This document shows, piece by piece, positions 7,399 through 15,890 of a stretch of 20,379 nt of DNA. This DNA is from a virus, in IMG/VR virus record IMGVR_UViG_3300025874_000805, positions 1-20,379 of that record; one strand, given 5' to 3'. Positions within the stretch are counted from its first letter, which is position 1. Each line of letters starts with the position of its first letter. A model generated the notes under the pieces. That model saw nothing but the letters and a program-made list of their open reading frames with translations. It was not told the DNA's origin and did no database searches. Made by a program: the position numbers and the translations under genes.

Positions 7399-7950
7399 AT
7401 GGCGAAAGATGCTAAGAAAAGACCATACTACGTTGACAATAAGAAGTTCTTTGCGGCGATGTGTGAGTTCAAGACCTCGGTGAATGAGGCAAAGGATGCG
7501 GGTCAATCTCGCCCCGTGGTTCCAAACTATGTTGCCGAGTGTATCATGAAGATCGCCACTCATCTTTCATACAAGCCAAACTTCATTAACTACACATTCA
7601 GGGATGAGATGATATCAGACGGCATTGAAAACAGCCTTCAGTATATCGACAACTTCAACCCAGAGAAGTCTAAGAATCCTTTTGCGTATTTTACTCAGAT
7701 AATCTACTACGCATTCCTCCGTAGAATTCAGAAAGAAAAGAAGCACCTCTATGTTAAGATGAAAGTGTCCGACCATCTGAATGTTCTTGGTGATACTGCC
7801 GATACTCAGGGTCATGATTCTGGCAGAAACTTTAATGATGATGTCAAGTTTAGTGAGTGGACTCAAGAATATATGAAGGGGTTTGTTCAGGACTTTGAAG
7901 AAAACAAAAGACGCAAGGTTAAGAAGCGCAGAACTGTAGAGGAAAAGTAA
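7399..7950 (+). CDS. 55: Late-transcription sigma factor gp55
   Basis: Phage sigma factor that directs host RNA polymerase to the TATAAATA late promoters, several of which are seen in this window. Of 183 aa (T4 185), the conserved core includes NYTFRDEMISDGIENSLQYI, DNFNPEKSKNPFAYFTQII and YYAFLRRIQKEKKHLYVK, a sigma region 2-like segment for -10 recognition. GGAAT at 7388-7392 (spacing 6) can serve ATG 7399. The C-terminus is very basic (KRRKVKKRRTVEEK). In T4 it carries a hydrophobic peptide that binds the gp45 clamp, and no such peptide is visible here. It overlaps the next gene by one base (TAATG). Confidence 0.93.
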   Translation: MAKDAKKRPYYVDNKKFFAAMCEFKTSVNEAKDAGQSRPVVPNYVAECIMKIATHLSYKPNFINYTFRDEMISDGIENSLQYIDNFNPEKSKNPFAYFTQIIYYAFLRRIQKEKKHLYVKMKVSDHLNVLGDTADTQGHDSGRNFNDDVKFSEWTQEYMKGFVQDFEENKRRKVKKRRTVEEK

Positions 7951-8363
7951 TGAAGGTTGGTTTCACATGTTCTACCTTTGATTTACTGCATGCTGGTCAT
8001 GTACAAATGCTTCGTGACGCCAAAGATCAATGCGACTATTTGATCTGCGCGTTACAGGTTGATCCTAGCGTTGATCGAGCTGAAAAGAACGCACCAATCC
8101 AAACTATTGTTGAGCGTTACACTCAGCTGAAGGCGGTTGGTTATGTTGACGAGATTATCCCATACGGAACTGAAGAGGATCTATTGGATATCCTGTCACT
8201 ATATCATATTGACATCAGGGTACTCGGCGAAGAGTATCGCGATAAAGAATTTACCGGCAAGGATATCTGCCGCAAGCGTGACATTGATTTATATTTTAAC
8301 AAACGTGACCATAGATTCAGTTCTAGCGGTTTAAGGGAACGTGTTTGTGAGGTGAAGAAATGA
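7950..8363 (+). CDS. TagD-like cytidylyltransferase
   Basis: Nucleotidyltransferase of the glycerol-3-phosphate cytidylyltransferase type, expected to make CDP-glycerol or a similar CDP-activated alcohol from CTP. The 137-aa size is normal for TagD. It opens MKVGFTCSTFDLLHAGHVQM with the HxGH signature (HAGH), and ends with HRFSSSGLRERV in place of the usual RTxGISTT loop, so substrate and nucleotide binding may differ. The gene overlaps gp55 (TAATG) and gp47 (ATGA), so it belongs to the replication operon. Related genes occur in marine T4-like phages with no settled role. It might feed a CDP-linked group into the modification cassette downstream, but that is speculation. Confidence 0.85.
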   Translation: MKVGFTCSTFDLLHAGHVQMLRDAKDQCDYLICALQVDPSVDRAEKNAPIQTIVERYTQLKAVGYVDEIIPYGTEEDLLDILSLYHIDIRVLGEEYRDKEFTGKDICRKRDIDLYFNKRDHRFSSSGLRERVCEVKK

Positions 8364-11144: not shown

Positions 11145-11668
11145 AATTAGTAGAGAAGTATGATCCAATACTATCAACCCCAACTGAGAAGTTTGACTTT
11201 GATAACCCCCAGATGGATCCGATTGAATTGTTTGAAAACCTTCGGGACGCTATGGTCGCCAATCGCGGCATGGGACTAGCTGCTCCTCAGGTTGGGATAC
11301 CGCTATCTGTATTTGTTATTGGTCACCCTGATGATCCTGATAACATTATACCAGTATTCAACCCAAAGATTGTTTCCCATGACGGCGAGGTATCTGAGGA
11401 AGAGGGATGCCTTTCTTTTCCTGGATTATTCGTTAAGGTTACTCGGCCAGCAATCGTGAGAGCACGGTATACAACACAGCACGGTGAGACTGATACTATT
11501 AAGTTTGGTGGATTCACTGCTAGGGCATTCCTACATGAATATGATCATACGATTGGTCGTACTTTTCTGACCAGAGCAAGCAACCTTTCCATCGAAAGGG
11601 CTAAGAAGCAGAAAAAGAAGTTAGATGCTACGAGGGCAAGAAATAGCTTGACATTATCATCACAATGA
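11141..11668 (+). CDS. def: Peptide deformylase
   Basis: Metalloenzyme that removes the N-formyl group from new polypeptides as they leave the ribosome. The 175 aa carry all three family motifs: GMGLAAPQ (43-50), EGCLSFP (Glu88 to Pro94, metal ligand Cys90) and HEYDH (His132, catalytic Glu133, His136). It ends in a lysine-rich tail (KKQKKKLDATRAR), unlike the hydrophobic ribosome-binding helix of bacterial enzymes. Phage deformylases are well known in cyanophages and other marine T4-like phages. There they are thought to sustain processing of host or photosynthetic proteins during infection. ATGA overlaps link it to gp46 and to the next 46-aa gene. Confidence 0.95.
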   Translation: MKLVEKYDPILSTPTEKFDFDNPQMDPIELFENLRDAMVANRGMGLAAPQVGIPLSVFVIGHPDDPDNIIPVFNPKIVSHDGEVSEEEGCLSFPGLFVKVTRPAIVRARYTTQHGETDTIKFGGFTARAFLHEYDHTIGRTFLTRASNLSIERAKKQKKKLDATRARNSLTLSSQ

Positions 11669-11805
11669 GTTATACTGATAAGATGATATGGGTTTTTATG
11701 ATGTGTTGGCTACAAGGCACCATAGATAATGATGATAATCTTTGGGGTGTTCTTTGGTCTTTGCGTCGGATTGAAAGTCAAAAAATAATTATTATGGATA
11801 AGTGA
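11665..11805 (+). CDS. Small Trp- and Met-rich protein, 46 aa
   Basis: A 46-codon frame starts in an ATGA overlap with the deformylase stop and ends one base before the ATG of the dehydrogenase gene, so it exactly fills the gap. The product opens MSYTDKMIWVFMMCWLQGTI and contains four Trp residues, with WGVLWSLRRIESQK in the second half. The hydrophobic stretch at residues 7-20 is short for a membrane span. No family was recognised. The perfect fit between neighbours in a coupled operon argues for a real gene, possibly a helper of the modification cassette that follows. The alternative is a leader that simply keeps ribosomes coupled. Confidence 0.6.
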   Translation: MSYTDKMIWVFMMCWLQGTIDNDDNLWGVLWSLRRIESQKIIIMDK

Positions 11806-12564
11806 ATGAGAATTGTTGTTGCCGGTATGGGCGCTGTTGGTAATGCCGTTTATGCTTCCTTGGATAAACATCCAAATATTAATGTGGTTTGTGACGACCC
11901 AGCTATGGGCAAGCATAATGAAGATTTAAATGTTGATGGGGTTGTTGTCTGTGTTGCTACTCCTCAGGCTGAGGACGGCTCTTGCTATACACAAAACATA
12001 GAAGATGTCTTTGAGAAGTATGGTGATACCAAATACCTCATTAAGTCTACTATTAATCCAATGTTTGTCGCTTCGCGCGATGAGCAGATTACTGTTTCGC
12101 CTGAGTTTCTTCGGGGAACTATCGGCGCTGATCCCACTAAAGAATTCCTAGAACAAGAGTTCTCAATCTTTGGCGGCGAAGATGCTAGGTTTTGGCATGA
12201 GATATTTAAGCCAGTTCTTCCTAATCTTAAAGTCGTGCGATATACTACAGCCGAGCAAGCAGCATTTGCCAAATATGTATTAAACACATTCCTAGCGACT
12301 AAGGTCGGTTTCTTCAATGAGATGTATAAAATCTATGAAGGTTTAGGATACACTGGGTTTGATACCATGGTTGAGTCTATCTGTAATGATCCGCGAGTTG
12401 GTCATTCCCACACACAAGTTCCTGGACCAGATGGGCAGTTTGGTTTCGGTGGTCACTGTTTCCCTAAAGATATATCCGCTCTCACAAATATAGCAAATTC
12501 AGTTGGTGTAAATACCCCTGTTCTAAATAACATTGTTATTGCTAATGCGGAGGATAGAAAATGA
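11806..12564 (+). CDS. Short UDP-glucose 6-dehydrogenase-like enzyme
   Basis: NAD-dependent nucleotide-sugar dehydrogenase, probably oxidising UDP-glucose (or a related UDP/GDP sugar) to its uronic acid. The 252 aa contain a Rossmann motif GMGAVG (7-12), SPEFLRG (98-104), the substrate segment KYVLNTFLATKVGFFNE (156-172) and the active-site motif GFGGHCFPKD (213-222) with catalytic Cys218. Bacterial Ugd proteins are about 390-440 aa. This one lacks most of the C-terminal UDP-binding domain, so it may work as a minimal enzyme or on another substrate. It is ATGA-coupled to the kinase gene. The nearby epimerase and glycosyltransferase suggest that it prepares a donor sugar. Confidence 0.88.
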   Translation: MRIVVAGMGAVGNAVYASLDKHPNINVVCDDPAMGKHNEDLNVDGVVVCVATPQAEDGSCYTQNIEDVFEKYGDTKYLIKSTINPMFVASRDEQITVSPEFLRGTIGADPTKEFLEQEFSIFGGEDARFWHEIFKPVLPNLKVVRYTTAEQAAFAKYVLNTFLATKVGFFNEMYKIYEGLGYTGFDTMVESICNDPRVGHSHTQVPGPDGQFGFGGHCFPKDISALTNIANSVGVNTPVLNNIVIANAEDRK

Positions 12565-12980
12565 AGATATTATTTATGGGATTGCCTGGAGCGGGTAAAA
12601 CATATTTGGCAGAAAGGGTTTCTGAGGAACTGGGGTTGGCTTGGTATAATGCTGACGCAGTTAGAACCATGGCTAAAGACTGGGACTTCAGTAACGAAGG
12701 GCGGGTTCGCCAATCTCAACGTATGCGCACCTTTGCTGACTTTGAGAAGTCAAATAATCGATCTGTGATCTGCGACTTTGTTTGCCCGACCCAACAAACC
12801 CGAGATGAGTTTGGCGCTGACCTTACTGTTTGGGTCAATACTATCACCGAGGGTCGGTACAAAGATACGAATAGTATATTTGAACAGCCGAAAGAATTTG
12901 ACTTTTGTGTTGAATTCAGGTATAATGATTCTCAAGTTAAGGAATTATGTGAAAATATACAAGCGAGGATAAATCTATGA
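12561..12980 (+). CDS. APS-kinase-like P-loop kinase
   Basis: Small P-loop kinase of 139 aa resembling adenylylsulfate kinase (CysC). Motifs are Walker A GLPGAGKT (7-14), NADAVR (30-35, in place of the DGDxxR of CysC), DWDFSNEGRVRQSQRM (40-55), VICDFVCPTQQTR (69-81) and GRYKDTNSIFEQP (98-110). The family is usually annotated as adenylylsulfate kinase, but the true substrate in phages is not established. In this setting it might phosphorylate a sugar, a nucleotide or the oxidised base. PAPS supply for sulfation is another option, though no sulfotransferase is visible. ATGA overlaps on both sides tie it to the dehydrogenase and the TET/JBP gene. Confidence 0.82.
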   Translation: MKILFMGLPGAGKTYLAERVSEELGLAWYNADAVRTMAKDWDFSNEGRVRQSQRMRTFADFEKSNNRSVICDFVCPTQQTRDEFGADLTVWVNTITEGRYKDTNSIFEQPKEFDFCVEFRYNDSQVKELCENIQARINL

Positions 12981-14332
12981 CAGAGGTAGTTACAGCAAAA
13001 GAGTGGCTGAACTGTGAAAGTCAGCTGGGCGAATATATGACTGATGCTGATTATGACGTATTGGTTGATTCTGATATGGATTTCTATGCTCCGCCTACAT
13101 TTGGTGAGCAGAACAACGAAAGTAATGTCATCTTCAAGTATAGAAGAAATGTGTTCACTACCGAAGAGCAGCAGGGCGCATATGATGGTTTGGTCGAAGC
13201 TGCCCAACCAACCCAGAACCGTGGATTAGCTGCTGGCGCAACTCGCGGTAAGCAGGGCGGCGCAACTGACGAATCTAAGGGTGGTCGCGACTGGGTTACT
13301 GCGTGTCACCTAGAAGTTCTTGATCACTATATGAACGAGCGCCAATCACTATTTGATGACGGCGGAGTTGATGCTATACTCGAGAAGCATAAAGATTCAG
13401 CTGCTGATGATACTCGTGGTATGGTATGGTTGAGAAATAAAGTATCTGACGCTGGGTACAACTATTCTACATTCTTTGACTCCAAGGTATCTGAGTGGAA
13501 AGGTATGTCATCTGCTGATGCTGCTAAAGATGCGACCATAGTTCGTAAGACTTACATCTCAGATACAACCTATGCCAACGCAGTTAACTCTGGTATCGCA
13601 GGTTTCTTTGACCGATACCCTAGAATTCCATTCGGTCGAGCAACGGCATATACTGATAACCACAGAGAACGCTATGAGAAGTGCTATCCATTTATGCGCA
13701 AGTTGTCTGACAAGTTTAAGCAGTATATGCCTGTGCGTTTTGCTATACAAGATACCTGTTCCAGAAAGATTGATTCGCGGTTTCTAGTTGCTGGTAATGA
13801 TACACCGTTCACCACTGTTACTGTCAATAAGAATTTCCGAACTGCTGCCCACCGCGATGCGGGTGACTTACATGAAGGGTTCTCGAACCTGACTGTTGTT
13901 GCTAAGGGTGACCAACAATGGACTGGTGGGTATTTGGTGCTTCCTGAGTTTCGGGTTGCTATTAATATCCGTCCAGGTGATTTGCTACTTATCAACAACC
14001 ACGCCGGTATTCATGGCAATACCGAACTGCTCCCGCCAGAAGGCAAGACCCTAGCAGATATGGAGCGAATAAGTTTAGTTTGCTATTTCAGAGAAAACAT
14101 GCTAAAATTGGGTAGCTGGGAATACGAGTCTCTCCGTAAACAGTTTGTTGATGACCGCAGAACTAATAAAGAGCATCAATTATGGAAGCATCTTTGGAAT
14201 GGCGTCAGTCCTAGTATGTGGGGTTCTGACGAATGGTATGTCTACCTAAAAGAAAAGGGTGGGCATGATATGTTAGCAAAATACCACCCAGAAGCACTTG
14301 AAGAGAAAACATCACTGGAGAGTTTCTTTTGA
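12977..14332 (+). CDS. TET/JBP-family 2-oxoglutarate/Fe(II) DNA dioxygenase
   Basis: Predicted to hydroxylate the C5 methyl group of 5-methylcytosine (TET-like) or thymine (JBP-like) in DNA. The 451-aa protein has a long N-terminal part, with KYRRNVFTTEEQQGAYDGL at 54-72 and NRGLAAG at 81-87, and a double-stranded beta-helix domain at about 255-372. Fe(II) ligands are His292 and Asp294 in NKNFRTAAHRDAGD and His346 in GIHGNTE; Arg364 (ERISLVCYFR) should bind 2-oxoglutarate. The FRTAxHxDxGD and HGNTE blocks closely resemble JBP/TET proteins. The C-terminus ends KTSLESFF, with PIP-box spacing. It lies among kinase, epimerase and TAGT-like glycosyltransferase genes, the expected hypermodification context. 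Base choice is unknown; no methyltransferase is in the window. Confidence 0.87.
   Translation: MTEVVTAKEWLNCESQLGEYMTDADYDVLVDSDMDFYAPPTFGEQNNESNVIFKYRRNVFTTEEQQGAYDGLVEAAQPTQNRGLAAGATRGKQGGATDESKGGRDWVTACHLEVLDHYMNERQSLFDDGGVDAILEKHKDSAADDTRGMVWLRNKVSDAGYNYSTFFDSKVSEWKGMSSADAAKDATIVRKTYISDTTYANAVNSGIAGFFDRYPRIPFGRATAYTDNHRERYEKCYPFMRKLSDKFKQYMPVRFAIQDTCSRKIDSRFLVAGNDTPFTTVTVNKNFRTAAHRDAGDLHEGFSNLTVVAKGDQQWTGGYLVLPEFRVAINIRPGDLLLINNHAGIHGNTELLPPEGKTLADMERISLVCYFRENMLKLGSWEYESLRKQFVDDRRTNKEHQLWKHLWNGVSPSMWGSDEWYVYLKEKGGHDMLAKYHPEALEEKTSLESFF
14317..14322 (+). promoter_or_regulatory. Ribosome binding site deciding the TTG start of the epimerase gene
   Basis: GGAGAG lies 6 nt before TTG 14329. 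It is embedded in the Leu-Glu-Ser codons of the dioxygenase C-terminal motif. The start overlaps the stop as TTGA. Confidence 0.75.
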
Positions 14333-15084
14333 TAGTTATAACAGGTGCGTCAGGTTATATTGGTTCTGTCCTAACGAGTAAGATGACAGCGCTCGGTTAT
14401 GATATTGATACATGGGATATTCGTCAGCCGATGGAGACCCCCATGGAAAACGTCAAGTGTGTTGTACACTTGGCGGCATTGGTAAGAGTAGGGGAAAGCG
14501 TAAAGCGCCCATTAGATTATTATGATACAAATGTGACTGGCACTTTGAATGTCATCCGTGCGTTTCCTAATGCTAAGATGGTGTTTGCATCCACGGGTGC
14601 AGCGTTTTCCCCAAACTCTCCTTATGGGCATTCTAAGGTAATGGCTGAGCAAATAATTAAGGATAGTTGTGAGGAATATACTATATTCCGTTTCTATAAT
14701 GTCGGCGGTGGTACGCCAACTAATCCCGAAGGGTTGCCGGCATCGATTAAAGCATCCCATGATTCTGGGAAGTTCACTATCTATGGCATTAATTATGATA
14801 CTAAAGATGGTACCTGCGTTCGTGACTATATACACATTGATGACATAACAGATGCTATTGTTCGGGCGGTTAATGCCGATGCTGCTATGACTGATTATGA
14901 ACCGCTCGGCTCTGGTAAATCATATACTGTTGAGGAGTATGTTGACGCATACCAAACCAAGTATGGGTACTGTATGTTCAATGTAGAATATGGTGCTCGC
15001 CGAGAAGGCGACATGGCTGTATCCGAAGTTCCATTTGTATCAAAATTTATGACACCAACCAAAACACTTGAAGAGATTGTATAA
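14329..15084 (+). CDS. GalE-like nucleotide-sugar epimerase (extended SDR)
   Basis: NAD-dependent extended short-chain dehydrogenase, most like UDP-glucose/UDP-glucuronate 4-epimerases. The 251 aa contain TGASGYIG (5-12), VHLAALVRVGESVKRP (46-61), the catalytic Ser/Thr at 88-89, YGHSK (Tyr99, Lys103), FRFYNVGGG (120-128) and DGTCVRDYIHIDD (160-172), the last a GalE hallmark. It is shorter than bacterial GalE (about 338 aa), with a reduced substrate domain. The start is TTG with GGAGAG at ideal distance. Next to a Ugd-like enzyme it could turn UDP-glucuronate into UDP-galacturonate, or UDP-glucose into UDP-galactose. The product is probably the donor for the following glycosyltransferase; the specific sugar cannot be read from the sequence. 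Confidence 0.88.
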   Translation: MIVITGASGYIGSVLTSKMTALGYDIDTWDIRQPMETPMENVKCVVHLAALVRVGESVKRPLDYYDTNVTGTLNVIRAFPNAKMVFASTGAAFSPNSPYGHSKVMAEQIIKDSCEEYTIFRFYNVGGGTPTNPEGLPASIKASHDSGKFTIYGINYDTKDGTCVRDYIHIDDITDAIVRAVNADAAMTDYEPLGSGKSYTVEEYVDAYQTKYGYCMFNVEYGARREGDMAVSEVPFVSKFMTPTKTLEEIV

Positions 15085-15890
15085 TGAAGATTAATATTGC
15101 TATTCCGTCATATAAGCGAGCAACCACCCTGCGTGATAAAACTGCCGCTCTACTTTCGTCATTTAACGTACCTGCTGAATTGGTAACTGTCTTCGTCGCT
15201 AACGAAGAAGAAAAGGTAAACTACCAAGAAGCATTGAAGGATTCACCATATAGTGGTAACATTGTTGTTGGTGTTGTTGGTATGGGCGCTATCCGAAACT
15301 ATATTCGTGATCATTATGCTGAGGGTGAGTTTATTGTCAATCTAGATGACGACTTGACTTCATTCAAAACTAAAGATCCTGCTAACGAAAAGAAGTTTGG
15401 TGAAGTTGTGGACCCAATCAAAGAAGTGTTTGAGCCAATGTATGATGCTATGTTTGACAATAACAATTCACTATGTGGCGTATATGCTGCGTCAAATCCG
15501 TTCTTTATGAGTTACAAGACCAAGGTTGGTTTGTATTACTGTATCGGTTCCTGCTGGGGCAGTATCAATTCTCACGATAAAGACTTATATGTACAGCTTG
15601 ACGATAAGGAAGATTTTGAGCGTACACTACAGCACTATGTAAAAGATGGCTCGGTTAGTCGTCTAGATAATATCACTGTCATTTCTAAGTATTACACTGA
15701 GGATGGCGGTATGCAAGTTGAAAGAACTGTCGAGCGTATTGATATTTCAGCTGATGCTTTGGTAGAGCGTTATCCTGATCTGTGTACCAAGTATGTTCGA
15801 GAAACTACAGGTCATGCTGAGCTGCGATTGAAAGATCGATCGGGCGGTAAGTATGACAAGAGCGGTAACTCGCTCGAAGGTTTCTTTTAA
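15084..15890 (+). CDS. TAGT-like glycosyltransferase (TET-associated)
   Basis: Glycosyltransferase expected to attach a sugar to the hydroxymethyl base made by the dioxygenase. The 268 aa have a GT-A-type layout: IAIPSYKRATTLRDKT (5-20), VFVANEEEKVNY (36-47), VVGVVGMGAIRNYI (61-74) and a metal-binding DDD (88-90) in IVNLDDDLTSF. The IPSYKR opening, the G-x-x-x-RN block and the DDD motif match my knowledge of the TET-associated glycosyltransferase (TAGT) family, which is linked to phage TET/JBP genes. A Gly/Ser-rich linker ends in SLEGFF, nearly the same as the end of the dioxygenase. It is TAATG-coupled to the epimerase gene and closes the cassette. TAGT membership should be tested by profile search. 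Confidence 0.82.
   Translation: MKINIAIPSYKRATTLRDKTAALLSSFNVPAELVTVFVANEEEKVNYQEALKDSPYSGNIVVGVVGMGAIRNYIRDHYAEGEFIVNLDDDLTSFKTKDPANEKKFGEVVDPIKEVFEPMYDAMFDNNNSLCGVYAASNPFFMSYKTKVGLYYCIGSCWGSINSHDKDLYVQLDDKEDFERTLQHYVKDGSVSRLDNITVISKYYTEDGGMQVERTVERIDISADALVERYPDLCTKYVRETTGHAELRLKDRSGGKYDKSGNSLEGFF

Follow-up and report, generated by a model that had tools for sequence, protein, structure and literature searches.

Phage gene clusters that pair a TET/JBP dioxygenase with a TAGT glycosyltransferase for cytosine hypermodification were predicted by Iyer et al. 2013 (as cited in PMC6449724). Phages ViI, M6 and phi W-14 use 5-hydroxymethyldeoxyuridine (5hmdU), a 5hmdU DNA kinase and alkylamine transferases, and 5hmdU is thought to enter their DNA via the nucleotide pool (PMC6449724). 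In phage T4, the C-termini of gp43, gp55 and gp33 bind the sliding clamp gp45 (PMC2988020, PMC9690074), and those of gp43 and gp55 are interchangeable (PMC2988020). An LDFL motif is described for such C-termini (PMC9690074), and the clamp-binding motif has been termed SCBM (PMC7892883). Here we describe a six-gene cassette (11665-15890) in IMG/VR record IMGVR_UViG_3300025874_000805, a linear 20,379-base fragment of a T4-like phage that was analyzed over its full length (the window). The cassette encodes a TET/JBP dioxygenase (TET) and a TAGT-family glycosyltransferase (TAGT), both ending in a tail of the phage DNA polymerase pattern. The component families are known. New are the swappable decorating enzymes around TET, a likely thymine target, and polymerase-type tails borne, among the modification enzymes, only by those acting on DNA.

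The six coupled genes had been reported in an earlier note on this DNA, and their coordinates and junctions (4-base overlaps, one 1-base overlap or direct abutment) were verified. Cassette order is kept in contigs L005, L006, L009 and L010, so the arrangement is not due to chance. The same cassette occurs at 99-100% identity in two other contigs, and the TET-epimerase-TAGT core is found in L007-L010 at ~80-92% identity to the window. TET (12977..14332, + strand like all features below; 451 residues), an Fe(II)/2-oxoglutarate enzyme and part of the core, matched Pfam Tet_JBP PF12851 at 5.6e-25 and 87.9 bits (cut-off 34.9). Its sequence profile gave only weak TET2 matches in the PDB (0.013), and fold comparison was therefore used. 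The best 26 Foldseek matches of the AlphaFold2 model against the PDB were all TET-family proteins (NgTet1, TET2, CcTet and CMD1; NgTet1 at E 3.8e-9). The model has a predicted local distance difference test (pLDDT) score of 79, with the last five residues under 50. Iron ligands His292, Asp294 and His346 together with Arg364 lie exactly where the earlier note placed them and are invariant in 34 relatives. The predicted activity is oxidation of the C5-methyl group of 5-methylcytosine (5mC) or thymine in DNA.

The second core enzyme, TAGT (15084..15890; 268 residues), matched Pfam PF20691 at 9e-10 and 39.3 bits (cut-off 27.5). The DDD motif noted before is located at residues 88-90, of which D89 and D90 are invariant in 25 relatives. 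Its model (pLDDT 92, residues 262-268 being the sole low-confidence segment) gave Foldseek matches to PDB entries of GT-A fold, namely TarS/RmlT/TarP (E about 1e-6) and LH3. Profile searches that could have placed both enzymes in other families thus assigned them above cut-off, and with the fold matches they bear out the proposed DNA-hypermodification cassette with an accessory sugar-nucleotide enzyme. Gene content likewise agrees with its placement inside a T4-like replication and recombination gene run. The observation in the earlier note is therefore confirmed and its interpretation as a whole partly supported; the clamp-type C-terminal tail common to TET and TAGT is a point that it missed.

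TET ends in KTSLESFF and TAGT in NSLEGFF, with the putative gp45 clamp-binding motifs SLESFF (14312..14329) and SLEGFF (15870..15887) following the polymerase-tail pattern. Across the loci, the tail was present on 54 of 67 TET, 19 of 26 TAGT, 5 of 6 TAGT2, 12 of 16 GNAT and both GT1 proteins, and a variant form, G-[LI]-E-x-F-[MLF], closes the majority of ADDTs. The loci yielded 652 protein clusters, 132 of them with at least four members, and in only seven of these 132 did at least half of the members bear the tail: TET, TAGT, DNA polymerase, ADDT, GNAT, TAGT2 and an HNH nuclease (2/4). All seven are DNA-acting. In the counts by gene type at these loci, no tagged protein was found among epimerases (EPI), mutases (GLF), GATase, cytidylyltransferases (CYT), Ugd, kinases or structural proteins. 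Internal windows put the chance rate of such a tail at about 0.0007 per protein. Tail counts within a family are not independent and binomial P values ignore kinship, so it is the recurrence of the tail in unrelated families that carries the argument.

DNA polymerases of the same phages (PF00136) end in ASLEDFFG, TLEDFFG and similar sequences, and SSLEDFFG closes that of G009, which among the polymerase-bearing relatives is nearest to the window. T4 gp43 ends in SLDFLFG and T4 gp55 in SLDFLYEAND. Variant tails co-vary between polymerase and modifying enzyme, with DLSSLFD (polymerase) and DLSKLF (TAGT) in Cr30 and QVSLF (polymerase) and SVSLF (TAGT2) in L082. S-CBWM1, for which the search found no family-B polymerase, has TET/TAGT without the tail, as do two small non-T4 phages, HTVC112P and P12024L. 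The shared pattern, the co-variation and the tail-free enzymes of the sampled non-T4 phages make it unlikely that SLExFF is a generic C-terminal motif, for instance a tag for TET-TAGT assembly, and not a clamp-binding peptide. Speaking for a generic motif are the derivation of clamp binding from a sequence pattern, the occurrence of the tail on a PF12322 baseplate protein in DLP6 and apparently in C48C1, and its absence from P-loop kinases and the putative galactofuranosyltransferase, which would be expected to act on DNA. We favor clamp docking: the tails suggest that TET and TAGT may ride the replication clamp and decorate DNA during copying, and the TET locus is probably a replisome-tethered DNA-decoration module. 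A literature search retrieved no report of a T4-type tail on TET, TAGT, ADDT or GNAT enzymes. The tails of T4 alpha-glucosyltransferase (alpha-GT), beta-GT and gp42 were considered as precedents and set aside, the motif being missing from all three.

Genome-wide, spurious antisense frames aside, only three genes in DLP6 and four in C48C1 carry the tail. Likely genes among the DLP6 carriers encode the polymerase, TET and a T4 baseplate protein, to which C48C1 adds an N6-adenine methyltransferase. The PF12322 baseplate hub protein ends in GMENFFV in DLP6 (135667-136368) and apparently in GIDDFF in the distantly related C48C1 (115098-115805), the gene having been profiled in DLP6 and its C48C1 counterpart presumed from similar N-terminus and length. 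D12 N6-adenine DNA methyltransferases near the polymerase end in STLDAFFG (C48C1 33480-34364, L263) and TSLDTFLS (L091:5806-6675), so the tag extends beyond hypermodification enzymes. Next to TET cassettes of ADDT type, HNH nucleases have the endings NTLEEFFV (L030:8005-8676) and NTLEKFFV (L037:11952-12617). The window's own late sigma factor gp55 (7399-7950) ends in KKRRTVEEK with no recognizable clamp tail, unlike T4 gp55. In nearer relatives of the window (L235-L241, L244; G001, G002, G009) the polymerase appears to occupy two frames of about 485 and 375-380 residues, likely a split gp43.

The surroundings of TET were compared over 115 TET loci, dereplicated to 56, of which 44 were found by TET search. 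Each TET in the dereplicated loci is normally accompanied by one decorating chemistry. This is either TAGT with or without the epimerase; the epimerase with a 342-residue protein and UDP-galactopyranose mutase (PF03275, 1.9e-53); GATase, GNAT, ADDT (PF18724) and Ploopntkinase3 (PF18751); or a GT1 glycosyltransferase. In L018, TET is flanked by ADDT (1e-23) and Ploopntkinase3 (6e-18). Within five genes of TET, TAGT was found in 20 of 44 dereplicated loci, ADDT in 16 and both in none (Fisher p=2.7e-6). Mapped onto the TET tree, the ADDT label requires seven changes, and the scatter of the five mutase loci equals that of shuffled labels, indicating that decorators were exchanged repeatedly. The TET locus is thus a decoration island in which TET stays fixed and the chemistry of its partners is swapped. 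The TET-epimerase-342-residue-mutase cassettes (L012:7448-8476, L069:7689-8705 and kin) predict a galactofuranosylated DNA base. The 342-residue gene beside the mutase (phrog_14998) had no Pfam, NCBIfam or PDB match, and galactofuranosyl transfer by its product is a guess. The 35-kb non-T4 Nonlabens phage P12024L (L219) carries consecutive genes for TET, TAGT and an N6/N4 methyltransferase, none of them with a clamp tail.

The earlier note had taken cytosine as the target base, a claim that most relatives do not support. Hydroxymethylcytosine of T4 is made with gp42, an enzyme of the thymidylate synthase (TS) family. No PF00145 C5-methyltransferase was found in 22 of 23 large records, including the complete DLP6, C48C1, Cr30 and S-CBWM1, in 48 of 50 further records, or within the 20-kb window. 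TS-family enzymes were found among the 23 large records only in Cr30 and a jumbo contig. ADDT relatives recovered by tblastn came mostly from phages of Salmonella, Vibrio, Klebsiella, Escherichia and Dickeya, and we take many of these phages to be ViI-like. Since near-complete relatives mostly lack a C5-methyltransferase and dCMP hydroxymethylase and orthologous same-site TETs are partnered with hydroxymethyluracil-linked, thymine-type decorator families (amino-acid:DNA transferase, ADDT, and P-loop kinase), thymine is at least as likely as cytosine. Most simply, TET would carry out a JBP-type reaction, converting thymine in DNA to hydroxymethyluracil.

Cytosine is the other candidate base, especially in the L071 group. 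In the 5mC route, a host or phage C5-methyltransferase would make 5mC, TET would convert it to 5-hydroxymethylcytosine, and TAGT would glycosylate the product. This route, reportedly established for some phage TETs by the Saleh and Weigele groups, would fit orthologs of L071, L073 and L074 type, in which TET is preceded, at a distance of a few genes, by an upstream PF00145 gene (in L071/L073 on TET's strand) and 5mC is plausible. It would also fit the annotation of TAGT as a beta-glucosyl-HMC-alpha-glucosyltransferase-type family, and the alignment of TET D297 with TET2 N1387, which we take to be a cytosine-contacting position. The near-complete absence of PF00145 from all other relatives, complete genomes included, and the hydroxymethyluracil-phage decorators of same-site orthologs leave this route somewhat doubtful for the window. 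D297 is the same in methyltransferase-linked and unlinked loci, so active-site residues were not used to tell thymine from 5mC and the sequence does not prove thymine. DNA of DLP6, whose TET is 48.5% identical to that of the window, is listed as restriction enzyme resistant (PMC8228603). This is consistent with nuclease protection, without being specific to it. As proof of the base it was discarded and kept as weak support, the 2017 text giving an enzyme panel without per-enzyme outcome.

The epimerase (14329..15084; 251 residues, TTG start) matched Pfam Epimerase at 1.5e-29, and its best PDB matches were UDP-glucose 4-epimerases (4e-28). The GalE equivalog model TIGR01179 scored best (2.6e-42, 144.8 bits) but below its cut-off of 262.3, and the protein is short (251 versus about 338 residues). 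It is therefore named GalE-like only. The epimerase gene lies directly downstream of TET in 28 loci and is followed by TAGT, or by the 342-residue gene and mutase, with genes often overlapping. This linkage makes it very unlikely that the nucleotide-sugar genes work in glycosylation of the cell surface or virion and are chance neighbors of TET, as might be suggested by the many marine T4-like phages whose short Ugd genes lie apart from TET. Orthologs of the epimerase in sister loci adjoin UDP-galactopyranose mutase cassettes. The enzyme being common to TAGT and mutase cassettes, we infer that it supplies the sugar nucleotide and that this is probably UDP-galactose.

A dedicated sugar-oxidation pathway, proposed earlier as the defining novelty, did not hold up. 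The Ugd-like dehydrogenase (11806..12564; 252 residues) matched UDPG_MGDP_dh PF00984 at 8e-19 and aligns with solved UGDs over their NAD and central domains, the alignment ending near residue 316 of 424. Neither the Pfam search nor the UGD alignment matched a C-terminal UDP-binding domain, and assignment as a full UGD was rejected for want of this third domain. At this site Ugd occurs only in this phage (the window and two near-identical contigs); sister EPI+TAGT loci, with TAGT 90-93% identical, are without it. Sugar oxidation is accordingly optional, the protein lacking the UDP-binding domain and being absent from sister cassettes. The small P-loop kinase (12561..12980; 139 residues), a second optional accessory, matched APS_kinase at 2e-7 and 31.4 bits (cut-off 21.1), far below every NCBIfam APS-kinase cut-off, and phrog_10255 at 2.5e-28. 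It is present in L009 and L010 and missing from L007 and L008. With no Ploopntkinase3 match and no tail, it was rejected as a 5-hydroxymethyluracil-DNA kinase. Oxidation to a uronic acid is thus possible and not core, Ugd here being specific to this phage and the kinase present in some sisters only.

Ugd, kinase and epimerase could alternatively form a hexuronic or pentose donor pathway (UDP-glucose to UDP-glucuronate and onward), as in arabinosylating phages, giving a base with a uronic acid or pentose. Its precedents are the arabinosyl bases of RB69 and the pentosyl bases of Thanatos (PMC6024577, PMC12838424). The catalytic residues C218, K156, N160 and E100 are all kept in the window's Ugd and invariant across 44 short phage forms of 242-312 residues. 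In C48C1 a short Ugd and an epimerase stand side by side, adjoining the polymerase and elsewhere in the genome from TET. Ugd may thus be linked to TET phages, the C48C1 genome having both. We consider such a pathway improbable here, given the absent UDP-binding domain, the Ugd-free sister loci and the finding that no UDP-glucuronate decarboxylase signature ranked above GalE. Short Ugd-like phage proteins (L130-L207) form a widespread family that keeps every checked catalytic residue and lacks the UDP-binding domain.

The remaining cassette gene (11665..11805) encodes a 46-residue protein with no family match. Relatives of 44-53 residues (32-57% identity) occur at the same position in L007, L008 and L010-L015, and this recurrence marks it as a real gene. 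Outside the cassette, a cytidylyltransferase-like protein of HldE-C/TagD type (7950..8363; TIGR02199 8e-19, under cut-off) is a possible sugar-nucleotide accessory, with relatives that take several positions, no more than five genes from TET, in 30 of 115 loci. The gene run of the window comprises capsid, UvsW, gp55, cytidylyltransferase, gp47, gp46, peptide deformylase, the six-gene cassette, Hsp20, a VWA protein and an AAA ATPase. Several of these neighbor names presumably hold, resting on gene order and our own reading.

Taken as a whole, the locus is best explained, with reasonable though not high confidence, by modification of the phage's own DNA with a glycosylated hydroxymethyl-pyrimidine, made in two steps on DNA by clamp-tethered TET and TAGT with swappable decorators. 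The SLExFF tails of both enzymes would dock on a sliding clamp of gp45 type in the manner of the polymerase tail, coupling decoration to replication. Clamp-bound TET would hydroxylate the C5-methyl group of a pyrimidine behind the fork, most likely thymine and possibly 5-methylcytosine. Clamp-bound TAGT would then transfer a hexose from a UDP-sugar to the hydroxymethyl base. Soluble enzymes would provide the UDP-sugar, the GalE-like epimerase probably yielding UDP-galactose, with Ugd and the kinase as optional tailoring of the donor. The purpose of the modification is probably protection against nucleases. More tentatively, and a little short of an even chance in our judgment, the system may be a viral counterpart of base J at the fork, in which TET converts thymine to hydroxymethyluracil, TAGT glycosylates it, both are gp45-tethered, and the exchanged decorators (TAGT, ADDT, GNAT and others) are independently clamp-tagged.

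Several points weigh against this explanation. T4 alpha-GT binds gp45 (PMC13216743) and has no SLExFF-type tail, and clamp binding is not the main cause of the dominance of alpha-glucosylation (PMC13216743). Exclusivity of decorators is not absolute, as TAGT, ADDT and kinase all lie within 10 kb of TET in Cr30. The window, a 20-kb fragment, contains neither gp43 nor gp45, and the nearest polymerase is that of G009. The L071 group and the D297 alignment count here too.

Of the new points, the tail lends itself best to testing. It suggests a general rule for T4-like phages, in which DNA-decorating enzymes bear the clamp-binding tail of the polymerase and precursor-making enzymes do not. It also offers a sequence tag for finding further DNA-modifying enzymes. 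Clamp tethering would explain whole-genome modification during fast replication. Swappable decorators on a fixed TET would explain how the phages vary their DNA coat to counter CRISPR, restriction and modification-dependent nucleases. Whether phage TETs act on thymine or cytosine becomes testable in phages already isolated.

Like the predicted phage TET-TAGT cytosine clusters, this system combines TET/JBP and a TAGT-family transferase in one operon. Unlike those clusters as cited, the present group is mostly without a C5-methyltransferase, swaps its decorators with ADDT/kinase/GNAT sets, and has polymerase-like tails, a GalE-like supply gene and an optional short Ugd. Thymidine hypermodification in M6, ViI and phi W-14 draws on ADDT and P-loop kinase families also present in sister TET loci, whereas here TET, replacing a TS-family hydroxymethylase, would make hydroxymethyldeoxyuridine on DNA. 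Kinetoplastid base J (JBP1/2 and JGT) follows the same predicted logic, thymine being oxidized in DNA before a hexose is added; the present system is viral, uses another transferase family and probably serves bulk protection rather than regulation. T4 alpha-GT on gp45 is likewise a DNA-modifying enzyme docking on the sliding clamp, a docking that is putative here, where the tail is carried by several unrelated enzyme families. The tail shares the pattern S-L-[DE]-x-[FL]-[FY], at or near the C-terminus, with T4 gp43, gp55 and gp33, where the motif is known for the polymerase and late-transcription factors.

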